Source: a virus. Taken from it: DNA of 28,743 nt. Where the stretch lies: positions 1 to 28,743 of IMG/VR virus record IMGVR_UViG_3300030102_005606, one strand, 5' to 3'. Both the position numbers and the translations under genes were made by a program. Shown here piece after piece: positions 3,341 through 27,181 of this stretch. Each line of letters starts with the position of its first letter. Positions within the stretch are counted from its first letter, which is position 1. Under the pieces are notes generated by a model. It did no database searches and had not been told where the DNA came from. It worked only from the letters and a program-made list of their open reading frames with translations.

Positions 3341-3674
3341 CTATTCATGGAATGTAAGTACTGTAGATGTTAAAGAAATAGACGGCAACGCTGATACTGT
3401 CTTTAATGTCCACTGGAGACTTACTGGAACTGATGATGCTAACAATGGTGCTGATGGCAACCCACAAGCTGCTACAGTATATGGTACACAATCTTTAGAC
3501 ACTTCAGACTTATCAGACTTTACCGCTTTTGCAGACTTAACTGTAAGTGACGTACAAAGTTGGGTTGAAGCAGCTATGGGTGAAGATAGAGTTAAAGAAA
3601 TAAAAGCTGGTCTTGATGCTCAGATTGACGAATTAGTTAATCCTGTAGTGCAAACAAAAACTATAGGCGGTTAA
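3330..3674 (+). CDS. Conserved phage protein, DUF7936-like
   Basis: A 114-aa protein starting with MAINYSWNVSTVDVKE and containing VFNVHWRLTGTDD, a pattern I associate with a small family common in marine phages next to fibre genes (I think DUF7936; from memory, unchecked). Function unknown. It starts inside the last codons of the S74 fibre, an 11-nt overlap, with an ACGAGGT ribosome-binding site just upstream, so it is translated in the same operon. The C-terminal third is helical. Its place between fibre genes suggests a virion or fibre-associated role, without direct proof. Confidence 0.7.
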   Translation: MAINYSWNVSTVDVKEIDGNADTVFNVHWRLTGTDDANNGADGNPQAATVYGTQSLDTSDLSDFTAFADLTVSDVQSWVEAAMGEDRVKEIKAGLDAQIDELVNPVVQTKTIGG

Positions 3675-21495: not shown

Positions 21496-21975
21496 ATGGT
21501 AGATTTTGCAGACGTTGATTTCATTGATTCTGTTGATGAAATGCCTATTGGGCCAAGCGTGGCTCCAGAAGGAACTTATCCTTGTAAGGTAATAGAAAGT
21601 GTTAAATACCAATCTAAATCAGGTAACAATACTTTGAAAATTACTTTTCAAGTAGATAACGGTAAATATAAAGATCATGTTGAATACTTCAGTCTTTGGC
21701 ATCCAACCGAAGATGTAAGAAGAATTGCAACTGAAAAGTTTACTAGATTGGCTAAAGCAGTAGGGTTTAAAAAGTACCCAGATGATGCTTCAGCCTATGT
21801 TGGTAAAGAATTACTTATGAATCTCAGAAATGTAGATGAAGATTGGAAAGATAATGACGGTAATACTCGTACTACGACTAAAACTGTTGTGAGGTCTTAT
21901 GAATTTAAGAATGACTTTCCACAAACTTCTGAAACTAAATCTGATGAGGCAGAAGTAAGTCCACCTCCTTTTTAA
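21496..21975 (+). CDS. Single-stranded DNA-binding protein, DUF669 type
   Basis: A 159-aa protein with the DUF669 layout: APEGTYPCKVIESVKYQSKS, NNTLKITFQVDNGKYKDHVE, FTRLAKAVGFKKYP and GKELLMNLRNVDED. These proteins act as phage SSBs, protecting unwound DNA and supporting annealing recombinases. The C-terminus is an acidic linker ending EVSPPPF, resembling the acidic, Phe-terminated tail that cellular SSBs use to recruit partners. It is co-transcribed with the Sak4-like gene. The core (about 20-140) is a probable OB fold. Confidence 0.82.
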   Translation: MVDFADVDFIDSVDEMPIGPSVAPEGTYPCKVIESVKYQSKSGNNTLKITFQVDNGKYKDHVEYFSLWHPTEDVRRIATEKFTRLAKAVGFKKYPDDASAYVGKELLMNLRNVDEDWKDNDGNTRTTTKTVVRSYEFKNDFPQTSETKSDEAEVSPPPF

Positions 21976-24522: not shown

Positions 24523-24901
24523 TATCTTCCTTTTCTTTATTCATGTGCTTTACTTTATAATAAACTTCCAAAGCTTCGCCAACTGCTCTGTTATTCCATT
24601 CATAGCCAATATCTTTTTTTACAACATCCAATATAGCTGCATGATACGCAGATAACCTTATGTTTCTGATTGTTCTAGGTACATATTTATTTGCCATTTT
24701 CTTCTCCTTATCTTCTGATTTTTTTTGTAGTTTATTTAAAATTTGATGACATCTTTTGATTCTTTTTTTAGCTTGATTTTTATAATGGTCAGGCATAAAA
24801 ACGCTTTGCAAATTTTTTTCAGACCTAATTATAAGACCTTCAATTAATGTGCAAATGGTTTCAGATTCTTCTTCTGATAATTTTTCTTCAAATGTTTGCA
24901 T
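24509..24901 (-). CDS. Hypothetical protein with possible internal start
   Basis: A 130-aa protein. Residues 1-68 are helical and charged (EEESETICTLIEGLIIRSEK). Residues 69-130 (MANKYVPRTIRNIRLSAYHA, then AILDVVKKDIG) look like a separate small domain, possibly ribbon-helix-helix-like. AAGGAGAAG lies directly before Met69, at 24697, so a second 62-aa product could be made from the same frame. The full-length start has AGAGGA upstream. It overlaps the nuclease gene upstream by 14 nt. Function unknown. Confidence 0.6.
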   Translation of the reverse strand: MQTFEEKLSEEESETICTLIEGLIIRSEKNLQSVFMPDHYKNQAKKRIKRCHQILNKLQKKSEDKEKKMANKYVPRTIRNIRLSAYHAAILDVVKKDIGYEWNNRAVGEALEVYYKVKHMNKEKEDNERR

Positions 24902-25772
24902 TACTATCCTCTCTGAGCTTAATTTCTACAAGATTAGGAGAATTGTGGATCATAGGCTCTTCGCCCTTCATAACGTCTCTATATAGCCCTAAAGTGCCTT
25001 CTAATGCTATCCACCCAGCTACTAAATCTTTTTCAGACATTTTGAAGATTTTACTAGCATAAGGTTTCTTTTTTTCTTGTGCTACAAAGTAAAAACCTTC
25101 TACCTTAAATCCCGCTTTTTCATATCCTCTTTTGTACCAAGAAGCTTGTAAATCATAGCCGTACTTACGAACTGAGCTAGTAAATCCTTTTGGCGAACAA
25201 TCCATTGTAGTTTTGTAATCGACAATAATTATATTCTTTTCTGAGTATGGTTGACCTATTGGATGCCTAATAACATCTGATCTTAATTTACAAAGTGTTT
25301 CTCCTTCATACCAATAGAATGACGACTCGTATGGGCTTTCAAATATAGAAGGATAGTCTAGCTCATTCGGATTGAGATACTTACTCGCTTCTGGAATGAG
25401 TGCTTCTTCCATAGCAAAAATATCTTCCTTCTGTTGATTATTAATAACGGTATAACCCCTTTGCTCATAGTCCGCTTTTAGCGACTTATTGGCGCTTGTA
25501 TAAGGAGATCCGACTATAACTGCAATATCTTTATCAAAAGCTTCTTGACCTTCGACAATAAGGGCATGAGCTGCTGTCCCAAATCTTAGGGCTGGCGAGT
25601 CCTCAATCTCTTCATATAAGGCGTGTACTTGGCTATCCATAAACTTTCTTATGGTTGATGAACTTACGCCTGGACTGTTGTGATAAAAGCTATTGGTTAG
25701 CTTTGGAAAGTAATATGCTTCGTTTAAAACATAATTCTTATGCGGTTCTAATATTTCAGGCAGACTTTGCAT
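24888..25772 (-). CDS. RecE-like / PD-(D/E)XK exonuclease
   Basis: A 294-aa nuclease of the RecB/RecE superfamily (DUF3799/ExoVIII-like). Motifs: FGTAAHALI with His69; LRSDVIRH with Asp166; IIIVDYKTT with Asp185 and Lys187; YDLQASWYKRGYEKA with Gln209. These bind the catalytic metals and DNA end. Such enzymes chew one strand from double-strand ends to make tails for an annealase, here probably the Sak4-like protein with the DUF669 SSB. I start it at the ATG at 25772, six bases after GAGGAGG, rather than the longer frame reaching 25853, whose extra residues have no conserved look and overlap another gene. Confidence 0.85.
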   Translation of the reverse strand: MQSLPEILEPHKNYVLNEAYYFPKLTNSFYHNSPGVSSSTIRKFMDSQVHALYEEIEDSPALRFGTAAHALIVEGQEAFDKDIAVIVGSPYTSANKSLKADYEQRGYTVINNQQKEDIFAMEEALIPEASKYLNPNELDYPSIFESPYESSFYWYEGETLCKLRSDVIRHPIGQPYSEKNIIIVDYKTTMDCSPKGFTSSVRKYGYDLQASWYKRGYEKAGFKVEGFYFVAQEKKKPYASKIFKMSEKDLVAGWIALEGTLGLYRDVMKGEEPMIHNSPNLVEIKLREDSNANI

Positions 25773-25890
25773 GTGGTTCCTCCTCTTGTAATTTACTGAT
25801 GATTTCTTCTCGCCATTGTTTAGCTCTTTTAAGATCGAACTCTGCCATAGCAAGTTGATGTATTAATTGTTGATATTTATCTTCTTCCAT
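25756..25890 (-). CDS. 44-aa helical protein, first gene of the leftward operon
   Basis: MEEDKYQQLIHQLAMAEFDL is followed by KRAKQWREEIISKLQEEEPH: a single amphipathic, charged helix. AGAGGT lies 10 nt before the ATG at 25890; an internal Met15 is the only other start. The gene's 3' end carries the ribosome-binding site of the exonuclease and overlaps it by 17 nt. Function unknown. Confidence 0.55.
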   Translation of the reverse strand: MEEDKYQQLIHQLAMAEFDLKRAKQWREEIISKLQEEEPHAKSA

Positions 25891-25903: not shown

Positions 25904-25933
25904 TTGTTGCATTATACACACTAAAAGTATAAT
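25904..25933 (+). promoter_or_regulatory. Rightward promoter reading into the candidate ncRNA
   Basis: TATAAT at 25928-25933 with a weak TTGTTG 18 bp upstream (25904-25909). Transcription would start near 25940, just before a strongly folded 130-nt stretch. Overlaps the leftward promoter; the two -10 boxes form an inverted pair 11 bp apart. Confidence 0.45.
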
Positions 25934-25941
25934 ATGTCCAC
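25911..25941 (-). promoter_or_regulatory. Leftward promoter of the recombination/methylation operon
   Basis: Minus strand TATAAT (25911-25916), with TGGACA (25936-25941) 19 bp upstream. The -10 is perfect, the -35 fair and the spacing long. It sits about 20 bp before the first leftward gene and back-to-back with a rightward -10 at 25928-25933. Confidence 0.55.
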
Positions 25942-26071
25942 TAATTGTAGTTAAGGGGAGGTTTTTTAAGTTACTTCCCTTAATTCTAGTGCCGTTCATG
26001 TCATTCTCCCAATTAGACGGCTAAGGCTTCGGAGAGAGCCTAGCTAGAAATCTCTCCGCCCTTGCCCTTTT
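25940..26071 (+). ncRNA. Candidate structured RNA: hairpin plus pseudoknot or switch
   Basis: No reading frame explains this stretch, yet it folds well. Hairpin I: TTAAGGGGAG (25951-25960) with CTTCCCTTAA (25974-25983), ten pairs including one G-U, loop of 13. Then GCCGT (25991-25995) can pair with ACGGC (26017-26021). Stem A: GCTAAGGCT (26020-26028, one bulge) with AGCCTAGC (26037-26044), loop TCGGAGAG. Stem B: CGGAGAGA (26030-26037) with TCTCTCCG (26051-26058), eight perfect pairs. Stem B uses the loop of stem A, so the two either make an H-type pseudoknot or exclude each other. CCCTTGCCCTTTT follows. It could be a free small RNA ending there, or a leader/switch for the 97-aa gene. Confidence 0.5.
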
Positions 26072-26092
26072 ATCTGGAAGTATGTATATAAT
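26062..26092 (+). promoter_or_regulatory. Possible promoter giving a leaderless mRNA
   Basis: TATAAT at 26087-26092 lies only 5 bp before the ATG at 26098, with TTGCCC 19 bp upstream (26062-26067). A start here would fall at or next to the ATG, and no ribosome-binding site precedes that ATG at normal distance. Weak -35 and long spacer keep this uncertain. Confidence 0.35.
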
Positions 26093-26097
26093 TCAGT

Positions 26098-26391
26098 ATG
26101 AGTTATCAGGTCATAAATTTTAAAGAAAAGTTGGGAAAACCCACGGCACAAGAACTGATAAATAAATGCGACAGTATTCTCAATAATCATAGTGTTAGAG
26201 GTGAGTCGGAACTAATGACTAGCCTTTGTATGCTGTCTTACTCTTTGCAAAAGATTATGCAGATAACGCAGTCGGATCAAGAAACAGTACGCCTGGTTAA
26301 CGAAACATTAGACGCACATCTTCCTGATGATTACCTAGGCGAAGAAAGTATCTTTTTTACTGCTGATTTTGACTTAGATCCAGAAAATTAA
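26098..26391 (+). CDS. 97-aa acidic protein, unknown
   Basis: A 97-aa soluble, acidic protein: INFKEKLGKPTAQELINKCD, SELMTSLCMLSYSLQKIMQI, ending FTADFDLDPEN. Mainly helical with an acidic tail. No family recognised. GGAAG lies too far upstream (about 18 nt) to be a normal ribosome-binding site, so it may be leaderless or depend on folding of the RNA before it. It stands alone between the structured region and the 220-bp gap before terminase; an early regulatory protein is possible but unproven. Confidence 0.65.
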   Translation: MSYQVINFKEKLGKPTAQELINKCDSILNNHSVRGESELMTSLCMLSYSLQKIMQITQSDQETVRLVNETLDAHLPDDYLGEESIFFTADFDLDPEN

Positions 26392-26611
26392 TATTGTCTG
26401 ATTTTTGTCATGGTATTTATGACACCGCAAATCCTTTATTTATAAGGCTTTCATTAATATTTTATTTTTTTCATTTTTGTCATAGGAATAATAAGAAAAT
26501 ACCCTTAAATACTCTAAAATCCTTGACAACTAACTAATCGGGAGTGTACCCTTGCTACACACTATTGGGAGAATGGTGGGAGGAGGTCGTATTAGAATAC
26601 GCTAAAAAATC
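26392..26611 (+). promoter_or_regulatory. 220-bp non-coding region before the small terminase gene
   Basis: No gene is seen. It holds two exact copies of ATTTTTGTCAT (26401-26411, 26473-26483), an inverted TGTCAT/ATGACA pair (26406-26411, 26419-26424), TTGTCA-17 bp-TACCCTT (26477-26506), TTGACA-18 bp-TACCCTT (26523-26553) and a small GTGTA/TACAC inverted repeat (26544-26548, 26556-26560). Likely promoters or protein sites for terminase expression; a packaging site next to the small subunit gene is also possible. Confidence 0.5.
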
Positions 26612-26614
26612 ATG
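26581..26614 (+). promoter_or_regulatory. Terminase ribosome-binding site with spacing hairpin
   Basis: AGGAGGT (26581-26587) is a perfect match to the 16S 3' end but lies 24 nt from the ATG at 26612. CGTAT (26588-26592) and ATACG (26597-26601) form a stem with loop TAGA exactly between them; folding it leaves 10 nt. An in-frame TAA at 26603-26605 rules out an earlier start. Confidence 0.65.
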
Positions 26615-27181
26615 GCAGATTATCAAAAGAAACATGATACAACTTACGAAGGCAATCTACTTGCTGAAAAAGATACGCCCCCTATCGAAACTTGCAACCT
26701 GGATAAGAAATTAAATCGCAGACAAAGAATATTCATTTGGACTGCTGTCAATAATCCTAGACTATCTTTGATTGAGTCGGCAGCGAAAGCTGGCTATAAG
26801 GATCCACGACAAGCTGCAAACAAACTCATGAGCAATCCTTTGATTAGATCCGAATACAACTACCTTATGAATGAAGTTAAGAAAAAGTATGAACTGAATT
26901 ATGATCGTGCTGTACAAGACCTTTATGACATTCGGGACAAAGCTTTAGAGGCTGGTTCATTTAACGCTGCAATTTCTGCTCAGAATAGTTTATTAAGAGT
27001 CGGGGGCCTGATTGTTGATCGTAAGGAAGTTATGTTTGGAAAAATAGATCAGATGAGTAGAGAAGAAGTCGAAAACCGCCTGGAAAGTCTGCTCGGACAG
27101 ACAATAGAAGCACAAGTTATTCAAGATAACGCTTTAGAAAATAATGATGTGAATGATTTAGAAAGTGAAGTAGAGCAATAA
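26612..27181 (+). CDS. terS: Terminase small subunit (Terminase_2-like)
   Basis: A 189-aa protein that would recognise phage DNA and hand it to the large terminase ATPase. LNRRQRIFIWTAVNNPRLSL (34-53) and SAAKAGYKDPRQAANKLMSN (56-75) form the N-terminal helix-turn-helix of Terminase_2 proteins; AGSFNAAISAQNSLLRVGGL is the central oligomerisation helix region, followed by VDRKEVMFGKIDQMSREEVE. The acidic C-terminus (NDLESEVEQ) may bind the large subunit. The large subunit gene is not adjacent: after this gene the strand switches. Its 3' end also forms one arm of a terminator-like hairpin. Confidence 0.82.
   Translation: MADYQKKHDTTYEGNLLAEKDTPPIETCNLDKKLNRRQRIFIWTAVNNPRLSLIESAAKAGYKDPRQAANKLMSNPLIRSEYNYLMNEVKKKYELNYDRAVQDLYDIRDKALEAGSFNAAISAQNSLLRVGGLIVDRKEVMFGKIDQMSREEVENRLESLLGQTIEAQVIQDNALENNDVNDLESEVEQ

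Follow-up and report, generated by a model that had tools for sequence, protein, structure and literature searches.

The question raised by this locus is what a frame-free, structured RNA region does in the gap that separates a phage's leftward exonuclease operon from its rightward 97-aa ORF. It lies in a 28.7 kb virus record from an uncultured tailed phage (marine group), the whole of which was analysed and is called the window here. Besides the exonuclease, DNA methyltransferase and primase genes were recognised among the leftward genes, and Sak4-like, SSB-like, terminase small subunit and virion protein genes among the rightward ones; no tRNA was found in the window. An apparent tandem duplication is present at 113-2492, with two tail-fibre-like genes (113-1066 and 1257-2303) each followed by a related 62-aa ORF (1069-1257 and 2304-2492). 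The region is framed by these features:

21496-21975, plus strand: SSB-like gene, elsewhere in the window and away from the knot
24888-25853, minus strand: gene for an exonuclease VIII-like (DUF3799) protein in the divergent leftward operon, from protein matches
25940-25911, minus strand: strong leftward promoter TGGACA-18-TATAAT, back-to-back with the rightward promoter
25928-25933, plus strand: -10 box TATAAT of the first rightward promoter, conserved in 14 relatives, with a transcript start expected at about 25940
26078-26092, plus strand: second rightward promoter AAGTATGTATATAAT, with its -10 TATAAT at 26087-26092, invariant in the window's clade
26098-26391, plus strand: 97-aa ORF without a known family, found 5' of the terminase small subunit gene across the relatives
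26612-27181, plus strand: terminase small subunit (TerS), PHROG 51, E 3.6e-10

The first rightward promoter has a weak -35 (TTGCAT, 25907-25912), and the TGTCCA at 25935-25940, just 3' of its -10 box, is the -35 of the leftward promoter. A conserved ATGTC(C/T)AC word is explained by this leftward -35 sitting at the rightward transcript start, and conservation at the extreme 5' edge is therefore no evidence for an RNA. The 97-aa gene has a -10 box just 5' of its ATG and no Shine-Dalgarno sequence in the window's clade and, judged by eye, in other clades; from its position, the second rightward promoter would serve a leaderless start at ATG 26098. This leaderless-looking arrangement, with a -10 that is sometimes extended, recurs across clades (26087-26100 in the window; 3455-3466 in L073, 1040-1054 in L088 and 2855-2872 in L104), and the gene seems to be leaderless in all of them. 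With a promoter of its own, apparently for leaderless expression, the 97-aa gene does not simply have this RNA as its leader, which weakens the suggestion of a first-pass annotation that the RNA is a switch for the gene that follows. Nearer to TerS, a T7-promoter-like word lies 5' of the gene (CACTATTGGGAGA at 26547-26578; CACTATAGGGAGA at 3911-3943 in L073), with a TTGACA box just 5' of it, and is present in 59 partly redundant copies among the loci collected; no T7-like RNA polymerase to partner it was found in four 48-56-kb phage relatives.

The rightward TATAAT, the 10-pair hairpin and the GCCGT/ACGGC pairing (25991-25995/26017-26021) that the first-pass annotation had described were all found in place by direct reading and by script, and the region is as free of frames as it had said, with no ORF of at least 50 aa across 25936-26064 on either strand. 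The predicted RNA, all on the plus strand, is made up as follows:

25939-25991, plus strand: 5' domain, an outer stem CACUA/UAGUG around a 10-bp hairpin, all cells paired in the clade
25992-26020, plus strand: hairpin P0 (CCGU/ACGG), its loop UUCUCCC invariant
26024-26058, plus strand: H-type pseudoknot formed by S1 and S2, from direct reading and comparison with relatives
26024-26027/26038-26041, plus strand: S1 (stem A of the earlier annotation), AGGC/GCCU
26030-26037/26051-26058, plus strand: S2 (its stem B), CGGAGAGA/UCUCUCCG, 8 perfect pairs
26028-26029 and 26042-26050, plus strand: pseudoknot loops L1 (UU, 2 nt) and L3 (AGCUAGAAA, 9 nt), with no L2
26059-26071, plus strand: pyrimidine-rich tail CCCTTGCCCTTTT 3' of the pseudoknot, poorly conserved

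In the 5' domain, arms at 25939-25943 and 25987-25991 enclose the first hairpin (25951-25960/25974-25983; 10 pairs, one of them G-U), and three pairs vary within the window's clade by G-C/G-U/A-U exchange. The loop of P0 reads UUCUCC or CUCUCC in L073, L104, L038, L046 and L230, a hypervariable A/U stretch forms its 3' side, and every group can form a hairpin here (fold p values from 0.003 to 0.2). In the pseudoknot, the 5' arm of S2 sits inside the loop of S1, and 25 of the 45 bases at 26019-26063 are G or C by count. Folding of 25936-26100 gives a minimum free energy with a z of -3.3, 0 of 200 shuffles being as good; for 25939-26063 the z is -2.7. AAGG (26023-26026) could alternatively pair with CCUU (26060-26063) in the window's clade and, judged by eye, in some, though not all, of the relatives.

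Close relatives of the window are found in 14 IMG/VR contigs that encode the whole 97-aa protein at 81-99% identity, and in these the RNA region is nearly unchanged. As mean pairwise identity over eight representatives of the clade, the pseudoknot stands at 98% and the first hairpin at 96%; the 97-aa coding sequence stands at 88% (77% at third positions) and the 17 nt 3' of the knot at 64%. All 341 of 341 pair cells in the clade are standard and no pair shows a double change, so that proof by covariation comes only from a wider set.

Such a set was assembled from candidate loci fetched with the exonuclease and TerS proteins and then searched with a profile, which by sequence alone gave weak matches to L073/L075 (E 0.32) and L104 (E 6.1); both share the pseudoknot with the window in different letters. 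A descriptor scan and a relaxed one, together with two pattern scans, extended the set by L038/L089, L046, L084, L165, L170/L172, L175 and L230. In all, about ten distinct sequence types of uncultured relatives carry the knot, every accepted case having the same strand and the same syntenic gap, between the exonuclease operon and the 97-aa gene with TerS. Reversed-sequence controls gave scattered matches elsewhere or mirror images of real ones. Across all viral contigs, the pattern scans for two S2 words brought L230 as the one new member, besides further copies of types already known; the remaining matches were rejected as lacking S1 or lying in unrelated contexts. Many other clades carry the 97-aa gene and TerS without the knot.

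Covariation was assessed in a fixed-length alignment of 13 distinct rows, used because a MAFFT alignment of the untrimmed knots was out of register; trimming removed the eighth S2 pair, any S1 pair past the fourth, a single L1 base in L165 and some bases of L3. All 143 of 143 pair cells are standard, a share that is biased upward since most members were found with a pairing descriptor. Ten of the 11 pairs are changed on both sides somewhere in the set (four of four in S1, six of seven in S2), double-change cells number 36 where shuffles average 11.0 (sd 2.7), and with the partners shifted by 1-3 columns the paired cells fall to 29-60%. Independent of the descriptor bias are the two groups found by sequence only, the place and strand, which were outside the first descriptor, and the chance of finding S1 given S2, with p of 0.004-0.07 in each group, the groups not all being independent. 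Among groups, S1 stays conserved, as does the A-rich end of L3; otherwise the loops, L3 included, drift with no fixed core kept. Stems A and B are thus real, as the first-pass annotation had it, the two forming one H-type pseudoknot of interlocked stems, both with compensatory change; on this comparative evidence the fold is well supported. As a general mechanism, the two-state switch that it had offered in place of a knot is not supported, S1 and S2 being compatible and covarying together. Pairing of the P0 loop with the 5' arm of S2 did not exceed shuffles in any of the groups tested (p 0.23-0.95), and pairing of that loop with Shine-Dalgarno words of the flanking ORFs in relatives was mostly not above shuffles.

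No DNA match was found among phage isolates, where the 97-aa protein had a chance-level match only and TerS reached just 30-34% identity to two Pelagibacter phages and DSL-LC04. The genome search returned one match, at 3414-3448 of a 53-kb contig (L219, NHFF02000028.1) in the MAG Gammaproteobacteria bacterium TMED104. It is probably a phage contig binned into a gammaproteobacterial MAG, and its placement there hints at a host or reflects misbinning.

The neighbours of the knot in relatives bear most directly on its function. The usual order is promoter, ORF1 (66-68 aa), P0, knot, C-U tract, Shine-Dalgarno and ORF2 (41-76 aa), the knot lying about 30-75 nt 3' of the ORF1 stop and ending 13-24 nt before the ORF2 AUG. 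At the position of the window's tail most relatives carry a C-UUU(U) tract, and in nine of the 10 ORF2-bearing sequences the first 8 tail bases hold 4-6 U. Most ORF2 proteins look related and had no family match, that of L104 being different. L073 is without ORF1 and keeps a Shine-Dalgarno-like AGAGGAG, and the window's clade, without either ORF, retains AAGGGGAGG as the 5' arm of its first hairpin, a word that looks like a Shine-Dalgarno left over from a lost ORF1.

The reading preferred here, at a probability of about one half, is that the RNA is a cis-acting control element, an attenuator or translation gate, of a small phage operon, which the window's clade would have kept as a near stand-alone RNA. 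In a group of uncultured marine tailed phages, P0 and the H-type pseudoknot would together make up this element, carried by the first, short transcript in the rightward direction. In most relatives, where the element separates ORF1 from ORF2, P0 would fold once the polymerase is past ORF1, followed by the pseudoknot; S2, with 7-8 G-rich pairs, together with the U tract may stop or slow RNA polymerase, and/or the knot, at its short distance from the ORF2 start, may gate ORF2 translation. In the window's clade ORF1 and ORF2 would have been lost, rather than gained elsewhere, leaving an untranslated RNA of about 125 nt directly behind the promoter and upstream of the separately promoted 97-aa gene. 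Counted for cis control are the covariation, the shared place, the flanking ORFs with the short distance to the ORF2 AUG and the U-rich tails, the higher identity of the knot than of the 17 nt 3' of it, the conserved promoter just 5' and the ORF-free RNA of the window. Counted against it are a U tract that is weak or absent in exactly the groups lacking ORF1, a terminator scan with no call, the bias of the descriptor towards paired examples, and the lack of a tie to one gene, since L104 has a different ORF2 and the window's clade has none. The fuller proposal, of a new phage RNA family whose pseudoknot acts by itself as a regulated attenuator between two micro-genes and became a free small RNA in one clade after both genes were lost, is doubtful.

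Tentatively, the RNA of the window's clade might instead be a stand-alone small RNA of about 125 nt (from about 25940 to about 26065) that acts in trans or binds a protein, with the knot guarding its 3' end and the UUCUCCC loop as contact site. It is indeed a compact, fully structured and almost invariant unit with a start at a promoter and a sharp end at about 26064, kept though both ORFs are absent and the next gene has its own promoter. However, no strong U tract or other 3' end signal lies beyond 26058, and the homologous element is intercistronic in relatives; cis control of a small early operon is favoured ahead of this reading.

It appears unlikely that the element is just an intrinsic terminator, set between two small genes and with a pseudoknot of no importance. 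S2 is G+C-rich, with 7-8 pairs followed by C-U4-8 in several groups, and L084 and L165 could also pair AAAG with CUUU; by sequence, a terminator signature of a G+C-rich stem and U tract is seen in most ORF2-bearing relatives. A terminator scan, with loops limited to 3-8, called none. Yet conservation extends to S1 and to the A-rich end of L3, S1 covaries, and a start codon follows at once in relatives. In the window's clade the U tract is weak, and L073 has none; both lack ORF1, and simple termination therefore fails to explain the conservation there.

A riboswitch for a metabolite, built on a small pseudoknot like SAM-II, SAM-V and preQ1, is highly improbable, for the small H-type knot close 5' of a start codon in relatives comes with no Rfam match, loops that drift without a fixed core, and neighbours that are phage ORFs without known function, not metabolic genes. 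A frameshift-stimulating pseudoknot, which should sit within a reading frame or at its end, 3' of a slippery site, was ruled out by the position of the knot past the ORF1 stop and by the lack of an ORF in the window's RNA.

Among known RNAs, the covariance models of Rfam 15 gave no gathering match in the window, and permissive thresholds only chance-level snoRNA, lncRNA and Listeria sRNA matches (E about 1-4), in keeping with the first-pass view of a compact pseudoknot in a new phage RNA. The same annotation had been right to dismiss a likeness to the glutamine riboswitches (glnA, downstream-peptide), with which only the short words CGTTCAT and GACGG are in common. SAM-V is a simple pseudoknot close to the start codon, known from marine bacteria. 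The SAM-II riboswitch and the pseudoknotted methionine motif of Pelagibacter (PMC2704228) likewise share a simple pseudoknot near a start codon and an association with marine bacteria, but the element here has no conserved ligand core and adjoins phage genes instead of methionine genes. The STAXI motif (PMC2864571) is also pseudoknot-based, of unknown function and near DNA-handling genes; it is repeated two or three times, whereas the present element occurs once in the window and once in the 53-kb relative and does not match the STAXI model.

The translational operator of gene 32 in T4 and RB69 likewise has an H-type pseudoknot with a short L1 and no L2, in phage mRNA upstream of a ribosome-binding site, and its knot is followed by more than 40 nt of less structured RNA with UUAAA/UAAA repeats that holds that site (PMC535899). 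The T4 knot has a 7-bp S2 (by eye, stems UGCC/GGUA and GCUAUGA/UCAUAGC), and the pairing descriptor, which requires a longer L3, did not call it. More than 40 nt with repeats separate it from the AUG, against 13-24 nt without repeats here, and it controls an SSB gene, not small ORFs of no known family. Unlike that operator, the present element has a U tract directly 3' of S2 and the P0 hairpin 5' of the knot. An operator of the gene 32 type was rejected, the downstream ORFs having no SSB match and the SSB-like gene lying elsewhere. The fold type is thus known; the family, its genomic place and the gene-loss series appear to be new, and a limited search of the open-access literature found nothing on such an element. 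Structured RNAs of uncultured marine phages are poorly catalogued, and this one combines strong double-sided covariation and a fixed place near packaging genes with no Rfam family. Its natural series (both ORFs present, ORF1 absent, both absent) would make it possible to study the change from a cis-acting element to a free RNA.
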